Shown here: piece by piece, positions 38,913 to 46,016 of the stretch
Layout of the letters: every line of letters begins with the position of its first letter
Numbering within the stretch: the first letter of the stretch is position 1
Assembly: GCF_958304185.1 (NCBI RefSeq)
Contig: NZ_OY284433.1
Location: 1,612,001-1,676,000, forward strand
DNA: 64,000 nt
Direction of reading: 5' to 3'
Source: an uncultured Erythrobacter sp.
GTDB lineage: Bacteria > Pseudomonadota > Alphaproteobacteria > Sphingomonadales > Sphingomonadaceae
The notes under the pieces: generated by a model
What the model was told of the DNA's origin: nothing
The model's input: only the letters and a program-made list of their open reading frames with translations
Database searches by the model: none
Program-made: the position numbers and the translations under genes

Positions 38913-39091
38913 CGGGTAACCTCTTTCATGCAACGCGGCCGGGGGAGGAGAGAGCACCCGCGTCGTCATCCAGAAGATGGGCGGACACAGACCAAAGACA
39001 AGTAGGGAGAATGACTTATCCCGCCCAAGCGAAAGGGCCGGAAAGCAACCGCCTTCCGACCCTTCCGATAATCAACTCACCACCGCAAACC

Positions 39092-39186
39092 GATCCCACA
39101 GGGATCGCAAGGCCGACCGGCCGCCCGCAGCGACGCGACCGTTAGGTCGCATGAGCGAGGAAAGGCGAGCGCGGACGCGCTCGCCT
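39092..39186 (-). repeat. Structured covarying element, copy a (3' of rplA)
   Basis: On the plus strand the order is: hairpin GATCCC-ACA-GGGATC, GCAA, stem-loop GGCC-GACC-GGCC, GCCCGCAGCGAC, hairpin GCGACC-GTTA-GGTCGC, ATGAGCGAGGA, then an 11-bp hairpin (39163-39186). Read with rplA on the minus strand, the 11-bp hairpin comes first, 9 bases after the rplA stop and followed by TTTCC, so it probably terminates rplKA. Four more copies occur at 41777-41882, 43238-43329, 43340-43445 and 45380-45480, with different stems but the same loops and linkers. Confidence 0.75.
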
Positions 39187-39194
39187 CCCGCAAA

Positions 39195-39887
39195 TTACGC
39201 CCCTTCGACTTCCGAAAGGTCGACCTTCAGGCCCGGGCCCATGCTCGAGGTCATGGTGACCTTGCGCACATACTTGCCCTTGGCGCCCGACGGCTTGGAC
39301 TTCACCACGGCTTCGGTCAGCGCCTTGAAGTTCGCCTTCAGCGCGTCATCGGTGAAGCTCAGCTTGCCGATGCCCGAGTGGATGATGCCCTGCTTTTCGA
39401 CGCGGTATTCGACCTGGCCGCTCTTGGCGTCCTTGACCGCTTGCGCGACGTTGGGGGTGACGGTGCCGAGCTTGGGGTTCGGCATCAGGCCCTTGGGGCC
39501 CAGCGTCTTACCCAGACGGCCGACAACGGCCATCATGTCGGGCGAGGCGATCACGCGGTCGTAATCGAGGTTGCCCGCCAGCATGTCTTCCATCAGGTCT
39601 TCGGCGCCGACCTTGTCAGCCCCGGCAGCCAGCGCCTTTTCAGCGTTGTCGCCGCGCGCGAACACGGCAACCTTGACGTCCTTGCCGGTGCCCGAGGGCA
39701 GCGACACCATGCCGCGGACCATCTGGTCAGCGTGACGCGGATCGACGCCGAGGTTCATGGCCACTTCGACGGTTTCGTCGAACTTGGTCTTGTGCTCGCG
39801 CAGCAGAGCCAGCGCTTCATCGACGCTGTAGAGCTTTTCGCGGTCGAGACCGGCCAGTGCCTTGGCCTTTTTGGTGATCTTGGTCAT
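39195..39887 (-). CDS. rplA: 50S ribosomal protein L1
   Basis: 230 residues, standard. It starts [26 protein letters not shown] and contains the L1 marks [51 protein letters not shown] and the C-terminal [12 protein letters not shown]. It binds 23S rRNA at the stalk and in many bacteria represses its own operon through an rRNA-like site near rplK. It lies 4 bases after rplK. A hairpin of the structured element ends the transcript. Confidence 0.99.
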
Positions 39888-39891
39888 GTGC

Positions 39892-40323
39892 TTAGCCCTC
39901 CACCACTTCGAGGCCCATCGAGCGGGCGCTGCCTTCGATGATCTTCATGGCCTGATCAATGTCGTTTGCGTTCAGGTCAGCCATCTTGGCTTCCGCGATT
40001 TCCTTGATCTGCGACTGCTTGATGGTGCCGGCCGAGATCTTGCTGGGCTCCTTCGAACCCGACTTCAGACCAGCGGCCTTCTTGAGGAAGTACGACGCGG
40101 GCGGGGTCTTGGTGATGAAGGTGAACGAGCGATCGCCGTAGACCGTGATGACGGTCGGGATCGGCATGCCCTTTTCCATTTCCTGCGTGGCGGCGTTGAA
40201 CGCCTTGCAGAATTCCATGATGTTCACGCCGCGCTGACCCAGCGCCGGGCCGATCGGCGGCGACGGCGTGGCAGAGCCCGCGGGCACCTGCAGCTTGATA
40301 TAGCCTTCAATTTTCTTGGCCAT
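39892..40323 (-). CDS. rplK: 50S ribosomal protein L11
   Basis: 143 residues, standard. It has [34 protein letters not shown] (N-terminal domain that binds the GTPase-centre rRNA) and the C-terminal domain with [24 protein letters not shown]. In most bacteria it follows nusG directly; here about 1.5 kb with an opposite-strand pspA-like gene and a tiny gene intervene, so it needs its own promoter in the 462-bp leader region. Confidence 0.99.
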
Positions 40324-40785
40324 GTGGCCTTACTCCTGTCGCACTGTTGCCCGGCTGTTTCCATCCAGGCTCATGTTAAGCGGTCCAGCGCCTCTGCTTC
40401 GTGCATTGCAGAGGCTCCCGCACGGAATCACCGGCCTCAGGGGCCAGCGAAGGCGGGCGCATAGCGGTTCTGCCGCGCAATGCAAGCCCGCGCGCCCGTT
40501 GGGCCGTTCAGCTTCGTGCCTGTTGGAGACACATGAGACACTGTCCAAGAACCAAAAAACCAACCCCTCGCAGAATGCCTCCCCGCCGCAGATCGGGCGC
40601 AGGCGCGGCAGGGGAAGGTGCGGAAAGCGGGGCATCGCGGGGTTGGTAACACCGGCTGGCCGAGTAGGAAAATCCCCAAAGACCCGGCCCGGCGTGTCAG
40701 AAGGTCTTCACATTCTTCAGCAATTAGAACAATGTTTACAGGCTGACGGGTAGGTTGCCCGGCCTCAGAGTTTCAAGGGAACGAC
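40324..40785. other. rplK leader / divergent upstream region
   Basis: No convincing gene is present; the reading frames here have unusual composition and no ribosome-binding sites. An 8-bp perfect inverted repeat (GCCTCTGC at 40390-40397, GCAGAGGC at 40408-40415) lies about 70 bases upstream of rplK and would be in its leader mRNA. On the other side, the last 60 bases before the pspA-like gene are AT-rich (CAATTAGAACAATGTTTACAG). The region must hold the rplKA promoter and that of the pspA-like gene, but I cannot place their boxes with confidence. Confidence 0.4.
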
Positions 40786-41454
40786 ATGATCACTATCGCC
40801 ATCCGTGCGCGCGAAATCGTTTCGAGCAATGTCGACAGCCTCGTCAGCAAAGCGGGCGAGCCGCGCAAGATGCTGCGGCTGCTCCAGTCCGAAATCGAAG
40901 AAACGCTGATCGCGCTTCACGGCGATGCCGCGCGGGCCAAGCGCCAGCGGGAGCGGCTCAGTGATACCGCTGACCGGCTGGCTGCGGGCGCCGAGGAATG
41001 GACCGGCAAGGCGAAGATCGCGATCGATCACGGCCGCGAAGACCTCGCCCGCGCCGCCCTGCTGACCCGCGAGGCCGAGCGTGCCACGGCCGCAGACGCC
41101 GTCGCGAGCGCCGCTGCGCTGGGTGATCAAATCGCCGAGGCCACCGCTGTCATCGCCGACCTTGAAGCCAAGCGCACCGCCATCACCGCGCGCATCGCCG
41201 AACTGGTGAAGGCTGAAGCCGCGACACAACCCGCTGCGGCTGCCGCCGACACCCATGTCGACCGCCGCATCGACCGGATCGAAGCTCTGGAACGTCGCGC
41301 CGGTTTTGTGGATGCGCCCGGAGAAGCCCCCTCGCCCGCCTCGCTCGATGACGAGATTGCGGGCCTGCAACAGGCCAGCGCGATCGAGGCGGAACTGGCG
41401 GCACTGAAGGCCACGGCTGCACCGGCGAAGAAGGCGGCGGGCAAGAAGCGCTGA
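40786..41454 (+). CDS. PspA/IM30 family protein
   Basis: 222 residues, almost all helical. ITIAIRAREIVSSNVDSLVSKAGEPRKMLRLLQSEIEETL matches the PspA N-terminus, where an amphipathic helix precedes a long coiled coil. A long charged coil (about 45-145) and a shorter C-terminal coil follow, ending in a Lys/Ala tail. PspA proteins form ESCRT-III-like coats that protect the inner membrane. No pspF, pspB or pspC is near, and no clear sigma-54 promoter is seen. It is inserted, in opposite orientation, between nusG and rplK. Confidence 0.82.
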   Translation: MITIAIRAREIVSSNVDSLVSKAGEPRKMLRLLQSEIEETLIALHGDAARAKRQRERLSDTADRLAAGAEEWTGKAKIAIDHGREDLARAALLTREAERATAADAVASAAALGDQIAEATAVIADLEAKRTAITARIAELVKAEAATQPAAAAADTHVDRRIDRIEALERRAGFVDAPGEAPSPASLDDEIAGLQQASAIEAELAALKATAAPAKKAAGKKR

Positions 41455-41467
41455 TCTCACCAATTGC

Positions 41468-41561
41468 CGTCGCCCCGTGCGTCACACGGGGCTTGGCTGT
41501 CTTGTGCTGACCACATTGCGCCGAAAGAAAATCCAAGCCCCGTGTCAAGCACGGGGCGACG
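41468..41561. repeat. Palindromic repeat with CGTCGCCCCGTGC ends
   Basis: CGTCGCCCCGTGC (41468-41480) pairs with GCACGGGGCGACG (41549-41561). Inner ACACGGGGCTTGG pairs with CCAAGCCCCGTGT. Only about 35 bases lie between the inner arms. It ends 7 bases before the stop codon of the tiny Cys-rich gene on the minus strand. Confidence 0.75.
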
Positions 41562-41567
41562 GGTGAA

Positions 41568-41741
41568 TTATGTCGGGCGCGGCACCCTCAACCCCTTGGT
41601 GCGGCTGGTGAGGTGGAACTTGTGGCACAGCGCGCACTTGTAGGTGCGCAAGGTCACATCGGCGCTCAACGCCGCGGCATCCGCTTCCTCGCGAGTCTCA
41701 TAGCGGCGCTTGCGCTGGCAGATACCGGGCGAGGTCTTCAC
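41568..41741 (-). CDS. Tiny Cys-containing, zinc-ribbon-like protein
   Basis: 57 residues, GTG start with GAAGGG 3-8 bases upstream. It reads TSPGICQRKRRYETREEADAAA, then LRTYKCALCHKFHLTS. The single Cys near 9 plus C-x-x-C and a following His could bind zinc. The pattern of an RY-x-T-x-E-A-D-A stretch followed by Y-x-C-x-x-C-x-x-x-H-L-T is that of small uncharacterised bacterial proteins that look like a one-sided zinc ribbon. It is downstream of nusG on the same strand, after the structured element. Too short for many gene callers. Confidence 0.65.
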   Translation of the reverse strand: MKTSPGICQRKRRYETREEADAAALSADVTLRTYKCALCHKFHLTSRTKGLRVPRPT

Positions 41742-41776
41742 GACCCTTCTACACCCAGACAGTTTCGCACTGGATC

Positions 41777-41882
41777 GGCCTCATAGAGGCCGCAAGGGCG
41801 ACCGCCCGCCCGCAGGCGCCCCGCATGGAGCGAAGCGACAGAAGGGAACAGCGCCGAGGACGCACCCGCGGAGGCGGGTGCG
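41777..41882 (-). repeat. Structured covarying element, copy d (3' of nusG)
   Basis: Plus-strand order: hairpin GGCCTC-ATA-GAGGCC, GCAA, stem-loop GGGC-GACC-GCCC, GCCCGCA, long-range arms GGCGC and GCGCC enclosing about 31 bases, GAGGA, and hairpin CGCACCCGC-GGAG-GCGGGTGCG. On the nusG strand the last hairpin comes first, 6 bases after the nusG stop, so it probably ends the secE-nusG transcript. Confidence 0.75.
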
Positions 41883-41888
41883 CAACCA

Positions 41889-42425
41889 CTATTTCGCCAG
41901 TTCGACGTGCTCGAAATCGAGCTCCACCGGGGTTGCGCGGCCGAAGATCGACACCGAAACCTTGACCTTCGCCTTGTCGAAATCGAGCTCTTCCACGATC
42001 CCGTTGAAGCTGGCGAACGGGCCGTCGAGCACCTTGACCGAATCGCCGATCTCGTAATCGACGCTGATCTCGCGCTTCGGCGCGGCCTGCGCATCGGCGA
42101 CGCCGCCGAAATAGCGCGAGGCTTCTTTTTCCGAGATCGCCTGCGGCTTGTTCATCGAACCAAGAAAGCCCGTCACCTTGGGGGTGTTCTTGACCAAGTG
42201 GTAGACATCGTCGGTCAGGTTGAGCTTGGCCAGCACGTAGCCGGGCATGAACTTGCGTTCGACCTGCACCTTCTTGCCGCGCTTTACTTCGGTGATGGTT
42301 TCGGTGGGAACCTGCACTTCCTCGACGCCTTCGGACAGGCCGAGACGTTCAGCTTCCGAAATGATCGCGTCGCGAACCTTGTTCTCGAAACCGGAGTAAG
42401 CGTGGATGATGTACCAGCGAGCCAT
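41889..42425 (-). CDS. nusG: Transcription termination/antitermination factor NusG
   Basis: 178 residues. The start is MARWYIIHAYSGFENKV, the family N-terminus; the longer frame upstream overlaps secE's spacer. The NGN domain includes FMPGYVLAKLNLTDDVYHLVKNTPKVTGFLG, and the C-terminal KOW domain has GDSVKVLDGPFASFNGIVEELD. It binds RNA polymerase and links it to Rho or ribosomes. It sits 58 bp after secE, as in most bacteria, but rplK does not follow directly. Confidence 0.99.
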   Translation of the reverse strand: MARWYIIHAYSGFENKVRDAIISEAERLGLSEGVEEVQVPTETITEVKRGKKVQVERKFMPGYVLAKLNLTDDVYHLVKNTPKVTGFLGSMNKPQAISEKEASRYFGGVADAQAAPKREISVDYEIGDSVKVLDGPFASFNGIVEELDFDKAKVKVSVSIFGRATPVELDFEHVELAK

Positions 42426-42483
42426 GGAGAGTCCTTGGAAATAGAGATCTGACGGGCAGAGATAATCGGGCGCGCCGTGCGCC

Positions 42484-42726
42484 TTATTGCAGCAGGCTGA
42501 TCGCGCCGCGCACGACCGCACCGAAGAGGGAATCGACGCCGAGGAAGAAGATCGAGAGAATCACCATGAAGATGAACACGAAGATCGCCGTGCGCACGGT
42601 TTCCTCACGGGTCGGCCAGACGATCTTGTTCGTCTCGGCCTTGACCTGACTGAAGAACTCGCCGGGCGAGGTCTTGCGCTTTTTCTCTTCAACCTTGCCG
42701 AGTTCGGCGTTCTTCTGATCGGCCAT
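42484..42726 (-). CDS. secE: Preprotein translocase subunit SecE
   Basis: 80 residues. PGEFFSQVKAETNKIVWPTREETVRTAIFVFIFMVILSIFFLGVD contains the conserved cytoplasmic amphipathic helix with KIVWPTREET, followed by the single membrane span. The acidic and basic N-terminal extension is typical of alphaproteobacteria. It clamps SecY in the SecYEG channel. It lies between tRNA-Trp and nusG, the standard order. Confidence 0.97.
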   Translation of the reverse strand: MADQKNAELGKVEEKKRKTSPGEFFSQVKAETNKIVWPTREETVRTAIFVFIFMVILSIFFLGVDSLFGAVVRGAISLLQ

Positions 42727-42923
42727 GATAGCCCGTTCCTTCGCGTAATGCCTGCTCGTCCTGTCCGAGGCGGCTTTCAGGTAGGGGGCCGCGCCGCCCG
42801 GGACAAGGTCGCCGGAGGGGCTGGAAAACTACCGATGTCGGATAAGACGCAGAGGCTCTTACGCGCGGGACAGCGCAAATGCAAGAATGCTTGGGGCACG
42901 GATGCGTGCGCGGGCGGCGCGCC

Positions 42924-43076
42924 TCAGCGCGTCCCGAACAGGCGTGCGATCAGGCCGCCGCTGGGCTGCATCGGCAGGATCGGGCCGTGGATCGCCCGCC
43001 CCCGCGCCGGATCGCGGGTGGGACGCGGGCTGACCCACTGATCGGGCCGCGAGGAACGGAAGGTATAGGCGCTCAT
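42924..43076 (-). CDS. Small hypothetical protein between tRNA-Trp and secE
   Basis: 50 residues: it starts MSAYTFRSSRPDQWVSPRPT and ends PSGGLIARLFGTR. AGGAGA lies 7 bases before the ATG, which is the main reason to call it. It is Arg- and Pro-rich, with no span, signal peptide or known motif. Below the size cut-off of most gene finders. It could be co-transcribed with secE-nusG. Confidence 0.5.
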   Translation of the reverse strand: MSAYTFRSSRPDQWVSPRPTRDPARGRAIHGPILPMQPSGGLIARLFGTR

Positions 43077-43237
43077 CCTGTGTCTCCTGCGCGAGGGCGG
43101 TCAATCGGTTCGTCGACAGGAATACACGGCTCGCCTTGCGGGAGGATGAACGGTGGGGTGCGCTGAGCGGCACTCGAAGTGAGCGCGCCAAGGCCAACAC
43201 AATTTTTGGAACAAGCCTTCAAGAAGGCGGAGGATTC

Positions 43238-43329
43238 GGCGCCAGAGGCGCCGCAAGGCCGACCGGCCGCCCGCAGCGACGCTGGCGCAGCCAGCATGAG
43301 CGAGGATTTCGCATCGCGGAGGCGATGCG
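43238..43329 (-). repeat. Structured covarying element, copy b (3' of tRNA-Trp, distal)
   Basis: Plus-strand order: hairpin GGCGCC-AGA-GGCGCC, GCAA, stem-loop GGCC-GACC-GGCC, GCCCGCAGCGAC, hairpin GCTGGC-GCA-GCCAGC, ATGAGCGAGGA, hairpin CGCATCGC-GGAG-GCGATGCG. Linkers are identical to copy a (3' of rplA), yet all three variable stems differ on both sides. It lies in tandem with copy c. Confidence 0.75.
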
Positions 43330-43339
43330 GAACACAAAC

Positions 43340-43445
43340 GACGCCAAAGGCGTCGCAAGCGCGACCGCGCGCCCGGACCGGCCCGGAATGCAGCGTAGCG
43401 AAATGGAGGATCAGCCGGGAGGACGAACCGGCGGAGGCCGGTTCG
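43340..43445 (-). repeat. Structured covarying element, copy c (3' of tRNA-Trp, proximal)
   Basis: Plus-strand order: hairpin GACGCC-AAA-GGCGTC, GCAA, stem-loop GCGC-GACC-GCGC, GCCCGG, long-range arms CCGGC and GCCGG, GAGGA, and a perfect 9-bp hairpin CGAACCGGC-GGAG-GCCGGTTCG. On the minus strand it begins 13 bases after the tRNA-Trp CCA end, with GTTTT just before the first hairpin. The GACC-loop stem is a third compensated version. Confidence 0.75.
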
Positions 43446-43457
43446 AAAACACACGAA

Positions 43458-43533
43458 TGGCAGGGGTGTGCGGACTCGAACCGCAGGCCCTCGGTTTTGG
43501 AGACCGATGCTCTACCAACTGAGCTACACCCCT
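43458..43533 (-). tRNA. tRNA-Trp (anticodon CCA)
   Basis: 76 nt including an encoded 3' CCA. The acceptor stem AGGGGTG pairs with CACCCCT, discriminator G. D arm GCTCAGTTGGTAGAGC, anticodon stem-loop CGGTCTCCAAAACCG with CCA, and T arm GCGGTTCGAGTCCGC are all intact. Placed upstream of secE-nusG-rplKA as in many proteobacteria. Two structured elements follow it directly. Confidence 0.98.
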
Positions 43534-43627
43534 GCAGCGCGTTGGAGCGGTGCCTTTATCGAAGGCTTATCCGATAGGCAATGCTCTTTGCCTCATCGCG
43601 CGCGGCCATGTATTGTGCGCTGCAACC

Positions 43628-44428
43628 ATGCACGCGCCGATCCGCCCTCCCATCCCTGTCGAGACCCTGCTGCTGGCCTACCGCAGCGGGATTTTTCCGA
43701 TGGCGGACAATCGCGAAGATGCCGAGGTGTTCTGGGTCGAGCCGCGTGAACGGGCGATCATACCGCTGGACGGGCTGCATATCTCCAAGAGCTTGCGCAA
43801 GGTGCTGCGCGCGGATCGGTTCGCCGTGACGGTCGATCGCGCGTTCGAACAGGTGATCCGCGCCTGCGCCGAGCCGCGCGATGATCATCCCGAAACCTGG
43901 ATCAGCGAACGGATCGTGCAGAGCTATATCGGCCTCCACCGCGCCGGGCACGCCCATTCGGTCGAATGCTGGCTAGCGGGCGAAGATGGCGCGCCGCAGC
44001 TGGTGGGCGGGCTCTACGGGGTCAGCTTTGACAGGGTGTTCTGCGGGGAGAGTATGTTCAGCCGGGTGCCGGATGCGAGCAAGGTTTCGCTGGCGTGGCT
44101 GGTGGCGCTGATGCGGCGCGCCGGGTTCGCCCTGCTCGACTGCCAGTTCATGACCGAGCACCTGCGCGCAATGGGTGCGACCGAGCTGGCGCAGGCGGAT
44201 TACCGGCGGCTGGTGGAGCGGGCGCAGGGCCAGCCGCATGACAGCCTCGGCACCGCGTGGCGCCACTTCAGCGGGGGCTATGCGTCGGGAGTCGGAGCCG
44301 CGCTGGGTGCCGCCGTAGGCGTGGCCGACGGGCGCGCGGCAGGCTTGCCCGAAGCCTCGGGCGATGGCGCGGCCGAACCTTCCTCGCCCGGGAAGCGCAT
44401 CGTGCAATCCTTGACCCAGACATCATAG
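43628..44428 (+). CDS. aat: Leucyl/phenylalanyl-tRNA--protein transferase
   Basis: 266 residues against the usual 200-240. The core is clear: LLLAYRSGIFPMADNREDAEVFWVEPRERAIIPLDGLHISKSLRK, ETWISERIVQSYIGLHRAGHAHSVECWL, LVGGLYGVSFDRVFCGESMFSRVPDASKVSLAWLV and LLDCQFMTEHLRAMGA. It adds Leu or Phe to Lys/Arg N-termini for ClpS/ClpAP degradation. The last 50 or so residues are Ala/Gly-rich and lie in a 151-bp antisense overlap with the convergent DUF2155 gene. Start MHAPIRPP is the first Met fitting the family. Confidence 0.96.
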   Translation: MHAPIRPPIPVETLLLAYRSGIFPMADNREDAEVFWVEPRERAIIPLDGLHISKSLRKVLRADRFAVTVDRAFEQVIRACAEPRDDHPETWISERIVQSYIGLHRAGHAHSVECWLAGEDGAPQLVGGLYGVSFDRVFCGESMFSRVPDASKVSLAWLVALMRRAGFALLDCQFMTEHLRAMGATELAQADYRRLVERAQGQPHDSLGTAWRHFSGGYASGVGAALGAAVGVADGRAAGLPEASGDGAAEPSSPGKRIVQSLTQTS

Positions 44429-44901
44429 ACCGGGTGTTCGACCACGTTGAGACTGGGCGATTCGAGGAACAGCCAGCCTGAGAACACGCGCTTGTGCTGC
44501 GCTTCGCCCCGGCCCTTAATGTCGACCTGCACGAAGGCCGCGGTCTGCTGCGGCATTTCCCACGGCGCGGTGCGCTCGCAAGCGGAGACGCGGACGATCA
44601 CCGGGCCGGTCTCGCGGCTTTCGCCGGGCTTCAGCTTGATCTCTTCGGAGACATTATTGCGTTTGTTGAGGAGGCCGAGCACCGCGATGCGCTCGTTCAT
44701 GGGGGTCGCGCCGTAATCATTGACCGGCGCGGCCGGGCTGGCAGCAGCTACGGGGCTTGCTTCACCCAGCGGCACCACCACCGCTTCGTTCTGGGAGGCG
44801 CTCATGTCGCAAGCGGCAAGCATCAGCACGCTCGCCAGCGGGAGGGCTAGGCCGAACTGCCGCACCGCGCGCCTCAGCTGTCCGCGCTGCCGGGGGTCCA
44901 C
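44278..44901 (-). CDS. DUF2155-domain lipoprotein
   Basis: 207 residues. The lipoprotein signal ends LMLAAC with lipidated C31. The DUF2155 core runs about 75-170: AVLGLLNKRNNVSEEIKLKPGES, VIVRVSACERTAPWE, AFVQVDIKGRG and RVFSGWLFLESPSLNVVEHPVYDVWVKDC. After this comes a 38-residue Pro/Ala/Ser tail encoded antisense to the aat tail. Function unknown; the family sits beside aat and NDUFA12 genes across alphaproteobacteria. Its start overlaps the upstream NDUFA12 gene by 28 bp. Confidence 0.88.
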   Translation of the reverse strand: MDPRQRGQLRRAVRQFGLALPLASVLMLAACDMSASQNEAVVVPLGEASPVAAASPAAPVNDYGATPMNERIAVLGLLNKRNNVSEEIKLKPGESRETGPVIVRVSACERTAPWEMPQQTAAFVQVDIKGRGEAQHKRVFSGWLFLESPSLNVVEHPVYDVWVKDCTMRFPGEEGSAAPSPEASGKPAARPSATPTAAPSAAPTPDA

Positions 44902-45305
44902 GCTTCGTAATCGCCCACAGCGCGGGCGCGCTGGCCGCCGCGCTCAAGGGCGCCTTGCGGGCGATAGGCCTGAACGGTGCCAGTGGCGTTGGGCGTGTAA
45001 TCCGCCTCCCAGATCCGCGGCGGCGGCAGGTGGCTTTCGGGCACGTCATCATAGGTGCCGTGCAGCCAACCGTGCCATTCGGCCGGCACGCGGCTGGCAT
45101 CATTGGCGCCGTTGTAGATCACCCAGCGCTTTTCGCGGCTGGTGTAGGAGCCGGTGTTGAGCGCGGCCGCCTTCGGCTTTTCGCGGTAGTATGCGTTGCC
45201 CGCGCCATCGGTGCCGACATGCTCACCGCCCGCGCGGCTCGCCCAGAGCTGTGTGCCGAGCGTGGCACCGTCCCACCAGGTGAAGATTTTTCCGAGGATA
45301 CCCAT
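44874..45305 (-). CDS. NADH:ubiquinone oxidoreductase subunit NDUFA12 family protein
   Basis: 143 residues. Visible family blocks are FTWWDGATLGTQLWASRAGGEHVGTDGAGNAYYRE, KRWVIYNGANDASRVPAEWHGWLHGTYD and a basic/Pro C-terminus. It is an accessory subunit of alphaproteobacterial and mitochondrial complex I, on the matrix/cytoplasmic arm. It supports the alphaproteobacterial origin of the window. Upstream is the reversed structured element, and downstream DUF2155 overlaps by 28 bp. Confidence 0.93.
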   Translation of the reverse strand: MGILGKIFTWWDGATLGTQLWASRAGGEHVGTDGAGNAYYREKPKAAALNTGSYTSREKRWVIYNGANDASRVPAEWHGWLHGTYDDVPESHLPPPRIWEADYTPNATGTVQAYRPQGALERGGQRARAVGDYEAWTPGSADS

Positions 45306-45379
45306 AGGCCGTGCGCCTAGCGGAATTGGTCGCCCACGCCAATAATGATTGTCACGGCGGCGGGCGGGATGTTTGTTCG

Positions 45380-45480
45380 CGTGCCCGCCTCCGCGGGCAC
45401 GTCCTCGGCGCTATTCCTTCGCTACGCTACGGGCGCCTGCGGGCGGGCGGTCGCCCTTGCGGCCCGTCCGTTGGCGGGCC
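45380..45480 (+). repeat. Structured covarying element, copy e (reversed)
   Basis: On the plus strand the order is reversed: hairpin CGTGCCCGC-CTCC-GCGGGCACG first, then TCCTC, long-range arms GGCGC and GCGCC, TGCGGGC, stem-loop GGGC-GGTC-GCCC, TTGC and a GGCCCG/CGGGCC hairpin. It is thus opposite to the other four copies and opposite to both flanking genes (DUF192 and NDUFA12 on the minus strand). It fills half of the 204-bp gap between them. Confidence 0.7.
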
Positions 45481-45509
45481 GGGATCGCGCTCCCCATCCC
45501 GGTCAACGC

Positions 45510-46016
45510 TTAGCGCGGCACCTTCCACATCACCTTGTCACCCGGCACGATCCCCAGCTCTTTCGCCCGGCCCGCGCGCAATTCCAGCACCGCGCTTGTC
45601 AGCCCGCTCGATCGCACCGAATCGAGTGAATAGGGCACGGTGTTCGCCGCGATGTTGCTGATCCGCCCGTCCGGCCCGATGAAGATGATGTCGAGCGAGA
45701 GCGGGGTGTTCTTCATCCAGAAGCTTCGTGCTTCGGGCACGGCGGAGGGGAAGATCATGCCCTCGTTATCGCCCAGCTGGGTGCGGAACATCAGGCCCTT
45801 GGCCTGCGCTTCGGGGCTGGCGGCGACTTCGACCTTGAAGGCGAGCTTCTGGGTCCCGCGCTCGACCACAAGGTCGATCACCTCAAGGCCCGAGACCGGG
45901 TGGCGCGCCGCTGTGGCGGGGGCAGGCGTCTGCGCGCTGGCGGTAGTTGTCCCGGGCGAACAGGCCGCAAGCAACCCCGCCGCCATCACCGCGCTTGCCA
46001 AGAGGTGCCTCACCAT
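45510..46016 (-). CDS. DUF192 family lipoprotein
   Basis: 168 residues. The lipoprotein signal is AGLLAAC with C19 lipidated, then a short linker. The DUF192 core is FKVEVAASPEAQAKGLMFRTQLGDNEGMIFPS, ARSFWMKNTPLSLDIIFIGPDGRISNIAANTVPYS, AVLELRAGRAKELGIVPGDKV. Structure is a small beta barrel; function is not known. Its ATG overlaps the end of recX by 7 bp, so the two are likely co-translated. Confidence 0.9.
   Translation of the reverse strand: MVRHLLASAVMAAGLLAACSPGTTTASAQTPAPATAARHPVSGLEVIDLVVERGTQKLAFKVEVAASPEAQAKGLMFRTQLGDNEGMIFPSAVPEARSFWMKNTPLSLDIIFIGPDGRISNIAANTVPYSLDSVRSSGLTSAVLELRAGRAKELGIVPGDKVMWKVPR

Follow-up and report, generated by a model that had tools for sequence, protein, structure and literature searches.

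Dispersed extragenic palindromes are familiar in bacteria as repetitive extragenic palindromes (REPs), bacterial interspersed mosaic elements (BIMEs) and REPINs, which carry either a GTAG tag, when associated with a REP-associated tyrosine transposase (RAYT), or a CGTC tag, a type common in alphaproteobacteria. Integron attC sites offer a further comparison: they lie directly after a stop codon, fold on the strand opposite the gene and preserve structure above sequence. Here we analyse an element repeated five times in a 64,000-nucleotide stretch of an uncultured Erythrobacter sp. genome (contig NZ_OY284433.1, positions 1,612,001 to 1,676,000; hereafter the window), around trpT and two genes that we, in line with a first-pass annotation of this DNA, take to be nusG and rplA. 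The element consists of hairpin H1 (CGGNNN...NNNCCG), CAA, hairpin H2 with a GACC, GAAC or GACT loop, GCCCG, a variable hairpin H3, GAGGA, hairpin H4 with a GGAB loop and an A-rich, AAACAAA-like tail, together ~95-110 bp. Its copies form a family of multi-hairpin DNA repeats that appears to have spread through Erythrobacter-type genomes and that looks less like a classical RNA gene than like a novel type of mobile, REP-like palindrome. We assign a probability of roughly two in three to the reading that the element is a non-autonomous, REP-like mobile palindromic repeat whose relevant state is folded single-stranded DNA (ssDNA).

The likeness to REPs extends beyond dispersal. The accessible parts of PMC3733652 report alternative complementary stems and head-to-head dimers in REP families, see in the frequency of GT pairs a sign that RNA may be functional, and describe CGTC REPs as having no dedicated transposase. 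Some E. coli REPs are close to stop codons, according to the available sections of PMC12306157. Unlike REPs, BIMEs and REPINs, the element has three to four hairpins, invariant linkers and a length of ~100 bp. When 25 aligned copies were read, neither a GTAG nor a CGTC tag was recognised at a hairpin end; what borders the hairpins is CAA, GCCCG, GAGGA or one of various tails, and the GACG of copies reading GAGGACG continues into the H4 stem. It is also distinct from attC in having several hairpins and dispersed copies, and no attC core site was recognised by eye, no search with an attC model having been made. In Bradyrhizobium, Br-REP1 and Br-REP2 are fast-evolving alphaproteobacterial repeats of 3' untranslated regions (UTRs), the former within a three-stem-loop element; their core, CCGGAATCTCGAGATTCCGG, as printed in the portion of PMC5082802 available, resembles no part of our element. 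The CIR repeats of Caulobacter and Brucella are similar in being alphaproteobacterial, intergenic and ~110 bp long, with two inverted-repeat arms (PMC2229807, in part). Membership of the CIR group was rejected; GANTC, which CIRs carry, is found in 41 of 257 copies, against 63.8 expected at random. No description of the element was found in the accessible text of open-licence papers that deal with the repeats or structured RNAs of Erythrobacter, of Sphingomonadaceae and Sphingomonadales, or of alphaproteobacteria at large.

All five window copies read as the first-pass annotation had put them. The core GCAAGNNCGACCGNNCGCCCG is matched exactly at 39107, 41792, 43253 and 43355 on the forward strand and at 45440-45460 on the reverse strand. 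With up to three mismatches it is matched at seven window places (shuffle mean 1.79), but we rest the weight on the exact matches because 1 of 100 shuffles also reached seven. The 3.29-Mb genome holds 27 exact cores (13 forward, 14 reverse) and no exact match to the reversed core pattern used as a control. H1, H2 and H4 differ in sequence among the window copies while their arms are complementary inside each copy, which bears out the claim that stems change on both sides over fixed linkers. One of these linkers is CAA rather than the GCAA first given, since the G pairs with the outer C of CGG. Minimum-energy DNA folds of the first and third copies (c1 and c3) match the hairpin plan and add a CCCGC/GCGAGG stem that closes H3; this stem is invariant, and covariation therefore says nothing about it.

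To the eye the stems covary, and they do so statistically as well. A type-A alignment was built from 25 of 28 copies (omitting L021, L043 and L148), picked by their linkers and a GGANG word and not by pairing. In it, 89.1% of cells are paired, compared with 73.3% after shuffling and 29-47% when arms are slid, and 21 of 26 pairs show a double change. H1 pairing reaches just 62% in this alignment because the loop length of H1 varies under a fixed register; in 43 copies whose H1 was required to pair, 98.5% of all cells are paired. Under a custom-written tree-based null, E<0.05 was obtained for 4 of the 26 type-A pairs (two in H2, one each in H3 and H4, none in H1) and for 6 of 11 pairs in a set (A4) that had been selected for pairing H1, while no column pair outside the structure reached E<0.05. 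The covariation of paired bases exceeds that of every control, whether shuffled, slid or tree-based, in keeping with the compensated changes pointed out by the first-pass annotation. Its failure to recognise a named RNA family also stands: no Rfam family matches the element at gathering or loose thresholds, and eight further loci yielded only tRNA, signal recognition particle (SRP) and ffh matches.

H3 is variable. In L009 and L156 (L044 and L159 are similar) it contains a palindrome of foreign look, CCCCGGACTTGATCCGGGG, and 5 of 257 copies match one of the three such patterns tried, as if H3 might serve as a landing place for other repeats, judging from the letters. Extra nested GNA-loop mini-hairpins (AGCGTAGCT and CCGCC-GAA-GGCGG) occur inside H3 of L020 and of L216, the c1 orthologue in genome G016.

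The element is widespread among relatives. Counts across genomes come from related genomes and are hence not independent. Exact cores are present in 39 of 61 genomes in a search of relatives, and a family census with up to one mismatch found at least one core in 138 of 199 genomes and at least five in 50 (tallied by eye), the reversed control giving mostly 0-2 per genome and a maximum of 5, in one genome. Lineages differ in having their own H2 loop variant, GACC, GAAC or GACT. A covariance model matched in 7 of 289 alphaproteobacteria, 3 of them in the element's family; at most 22 candidates per genome were scored, and the counts are ceilings. Matches outside the family include, among those listed, ones in Asticcacaulis, Woodsholea and Glycocaulis, and some matches, for example in Collinsella, look like chance coding matches. 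The collected locus set comprises 197 core copies, of which 156 pass both the H1 and GAGG filters and the rest include chance coding hits such as L065, L067 and L127. The metagenome-assembled genome Porphyrobacter sp. UBA7686 has near-identical copies (L085 and L111, compared with L008 and L001). Genome G355 has 15 core matches, every one of them on the same strand.

Orthologous sites differ in whether they hold the element. Twenty regions were fetched and presence was judged by reading: an element adjoins the 3' end of rplA in 7 of 18 orthologous rows and is missing from 11, adjoins the 3' end of nusG in 2 of 16, and lies alongside trpT in 5 of 13, one of these without its 5' half. Genome G381 carries 19 copies with up to 83 identical bases in common, among which all four combinations of two H1 with two H4 types are seen. 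At eight loci of this genome, copies form a head-to-head dimer of ~245 bp with the H4 ends outermost; the left half has a diverged core that the search pattern missed. At one dimer locus, also compared with G520, the sister genome G462 has 68 unalignable bp against 263 in G381. There the left gene ends differently in G381, with its last codons and stop inside the apparent unit end, so that the dimer unit seems, from the aligned sequences, to supply this gene's stop. A head-to-head partner lies upstream of 42 of 181 copies (taken from 199, with both members counted) but of only 5 of 192 background windows; the share is 4 of 26 in the window's own genome and 38 of 155 in other genomes. The unit is therefore present or absent at orthologous sites in the manner of a miniature inverted-repeat transposable element (MITE) for c1, c2 and G462 compared with G381 and G520, and in the broad sense of dispersed extragenic palindromes with dimers it is REP-like.

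These findings bear on the contrast drawn by the first-pass annotation, which argued for RNA structure and not a simple DNA repeat. The covarying structure is upheld. The opposition to a DNA repeat is unsupported, because copies are polymorphic between species, amplified in one lineage, dimeric and composed of reassorting hairpins. DNA REPs also have alternative complementary stems. Repetition, covarying hairpins, orthologous presence and absence, lineage amplification, hairpin reassortment and a strong preference for gene 3' ends with H4 gene-ward are all directly observed. The element is a genuine composite palindromic repeat that behaves like a REP or MITE and is apparently mobile.

Alternatively, mutation itself could maintain the pairing: template switching would turn near-palindromes into perfect ones, with zero selection on folding. 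In G381, 302 of 306 stem cells are Watson-Crick (stem extents were set by best pairing, and H4 of L257 is not recognisable), although the per-site difference is 0.30 in stems (H4 5' arm) and 0.08 in the linker; such a scarcity of intermediates, together with common GC-to-CG flips, is what this process would leave. However, invariant linkers and loops need some keeper, H4 has a GT bias (described below), and the reassortment of whole hairpins accounts for part of the pattern with no new mutation. We regard this explanation as doubtful, if deserving of serious attention.

The position of copies relative to genes was examined with gene calls from a custom hexamer script, which missed some small genes. 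Among 171 copies with two called neighbours, the H4 side faces a gene 3' end in 122. The 3' location predicted by the first-pass annotation is hence real at gene ends, but the strand on which it read the element is, for most copies, antisense to the gene that they abut (the same 122 of 171). Only 12 of 190 copies fall inside called genes, some of them plainly chance coding hits. From 199 copies, a stop-distance test retained the 125 that have two called neighbours and an H4 with a clear GGAN loop: the H4 end is within 20 nt of a stop codon in 56, and the H1 end in 10, where uniform placement predicts 18.7 for each. In the window's own genome, 12 of 21 copies have the H4 end this close. The tRNA comparison also started from 199 copies. 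On the H4 side, the 12 element-tRNA pairs no more than 300 nt apart all present the tRNA 3' end, 8 of them within 40 nt (one tRNA is counted for both c3 and c4); on the H1 side, 5 tRNAs show the 5' end and 2 the 3' end. A few copies, L002 and L004 among them, have no H4, and their GAGGA is spaced from the following start codon as a Shine-Dalgarno sequence would be.

This placement suggests another explanation, that the element acts in minus-strand mRNA as a 3'-UTR hairpin, protecting 3' ends, shaping termination or slowing terminating ribosomes, and that copies are kept for this role. A fixed polarity and a distance of 0-20 nt downstream of stop codons are in its favour, as is the ribosome stalling reported, in the available sections of PMC12306157, for E. 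coli REPs no more than 15 nt from a stop. However, it is the opposite strand that bears the GNA loop signature and the GT bias of H4, copies also lie behind tRNAs, the majority of orthologous rows have no element, and dimers with H4 outermost may account for part of the polarity. As the reason for the element's existence we find this improbable; as a secondary use it can coexist with a mobile, REP-like repeat.

The composition of stems and loops was used to weigh RNA against DNA. Counted by distinct hairpin, GT pairs and AC pairs (wobble on the opposite strand) number 16 and 11 in H1 and 7 and 5 in H2, and H1 and H2 therefore lack the RNA signature of a G-U excess. H4 has a forward-strand bias, with 21 GT and 5 AC (p=0.0025) when anchored on the GGAN loop; when this anchor is dropped, 105 of 150 loops are GGAN and the counts are 41 and 17. 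For comparison, tRNAs from the element loci give 19 GT and 2 AC. Of the triloops, 68 of 99 in H1 and 38 of 58 in H3 are GNA, and 61 of 199 copies have GCGNAGC in their H3 region, against 8 for its complement. There is a class of stable DNA loops, d(cGNABg), which our literature searches did not confirm; the fit of H4 loops to it is only suggestive, because GGAA, too, should make a stable loop in DNA. The 132 GGAN-anchored H4 loops are GGAT (73), GGAG (45), GGAC (13) and GGAA (1). On G-C stems, GNA and GNNA loops give DNA mini-hairpins of extraordinary stability; that of GCGAAGC melts at 78 C (accessible text of PMC4686876).

The least probable explanation is a functional structured RNA, transcribed from the forward strand antisense to its neighbour or acting in cis, with compensated changes reflecting RNA selection: strong covariation, the H4 GT excess, compensated changes at the orthologous c1 site and GAGGA just before a start codon in a few H4-less copies speak for it, but presence and absence among close species, amplification and reassortment, H1 and H2 with no GU excess, a folded strand mostly antisense to the adjoining gene and the lack of an Rfam family speak against it.

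Several observations weigh against a mobile repeat acting as folded ssDNA. The H4 GT excess is the expectation for a forward-strand RNA, and H4 loops avoid GGAA although it is also stable as a DNA loop. Compensated H4 changes among c1 orthologues (GGCGAGCGC, AGTGAGCGC and AGTGATCGC) also fit RNA selection. Background intergenic hairpins outside the element are likewise rich in GNA or TNC loops (65 of 194). RNA and DNA folding z-scores fail to separate the readings; 8 of the 20 folds are of truncated c2 and c4 with H1 cut, and the ViennaRNA DNA parameters carry no bonus for the element's loops and are blind to their energies. No target-site duplication is definable, none being seen at the G381 locus, where the flanks are too diverged (89% and 83% identical). 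The G462 site offers no clean junction, and the aligned sequences leave the direction, gain or loss, unproven. Finally, no mobilizer was found in searches for Y1_Tnp and reverse transcriptase (RT), and an RT may have a role in the high-copy genomes that bear one.

The first-pass annotation had named a RAYT source among the findings that would overturn its view. A RAYT source within the window's genome was rejected, as the RAYT-type domain Y1_Tnp (PF01797) has no match there; the source RAYT gene may have been lost. PF01797 matches occur in 9 of the 37 genomes searched. Genome G001, of the same genus, has six Y1_Tnp matches, some of them fragments, against none in the window's genome. RT (PF00078) is found in 7 of 20 family genomes, 6 of 10 with high copy number and 1 of 10 with zero copies, and has no match in the window's genome or in G303, G362 and G381, and an RT is therefore not required, the trend with copy number notwithstanding.

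For a mobile, REP-like repeat, we envisage the following. Presence at an orthologous site would reflect insertion and not loss elsewhere, the relevant state would be the folded ssDNA of the strand antisense to the adjoining gene, and a trans-acting enzyme would move it. Complementarity would persist by exchange of whole hairpins or by recopying of an arm from its partner, whether or not folding is also selected for. Copies would survive chiefly behind gene ends, where they would form part of the 3' UTR and might affect mRNA ends in the way that REPs do. A bolder version, which we offer tentatively and consider rather unlikely, is a new mobile class of multiply folded ssDNA with GNA-type mini-hairpins that uses an ssDNA-specific recombinase, targets gene 3' ends and recodes its stems while copying.

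Coordinates of the window copies and adjoining genes are collected in the table. The H4 side of c5 is not stop-adjacent in the gene calls around this copy. Elsewhere in the window, an inverted palindrome pair lies between two genes at 41468-41561 (CGTC-GCCCCGTG-CGTCA-CACGGGGC-TTGG ... CCAA-GCCCCGTG-TCAAG-CACGGGGC-GACG). It resembles, on inspection of its bases, a CGTC-tagged REP dimer, but its stem and tail are unlike the published consensus; weak microRNA matches in the Rfam scan are likely caused by it. A motif, TTTTCCTAC / GTAGGAAAA, recurs near gene starts, at 40664-40672 in the window and at loci L034, L047, L091 and L134.

Table. Copies of the element in the window, hairpins of copy c1, and adjoining genes.
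Feature	Position	Strand	Detail
c1	39091..39185	+	9 nt from c1 end to rplA stop codon (39195-39197)
c1 H1	39091-39107	+	CGATCCC-ACA-GGGATCG, then CAA
c1 H2	39111-39122	+	GGCC-GACC-GGCC, then GCCCG
c1 H3	39135-39150	+	GCGACC-GTTA-GGTCGC
c1 GAGGA	39157-39161	+	
c1 H4	39164-39185	+	GGCGAGCGC-GGAC-GCGCTCGCC
c2	41776..41882	+	H3 type CAGGCGC...GCGCC; H4 end 6 nt from nusG stop codon (41889-41891)
c3	43237..43332	+	in tandem with c4, identical orientation
c4	43339..43445	+	12 nt between H4 end and tRNA-Trp 3' end
c5	45380..45481	-	inverted; H1 side ~30 nt from stop of gene 45510-45881 (-)
rplA	39195..39887	-	c1 adjoins gene 3' end
nusG	41889..42425	-	c2 adjoins gene 3' end
tRNA-Trp	43458..43533	-	c4 adjoins 3' end

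Strong base-pair covariation, the usual mark of functional RNA, here accompanies apparently mobile DNA with reassorted hairpins, which is of relevance for RNA discovery by covariation. With an amplified lineage, sister genomes and dozens of copies, the element also provides a tractable system for identifying what mobilizes REP-like palindromes when there is no RAYT, and for asking how such an element comes to lie within ~15 nt of a stop codon or of the 3' end of a tRNA.

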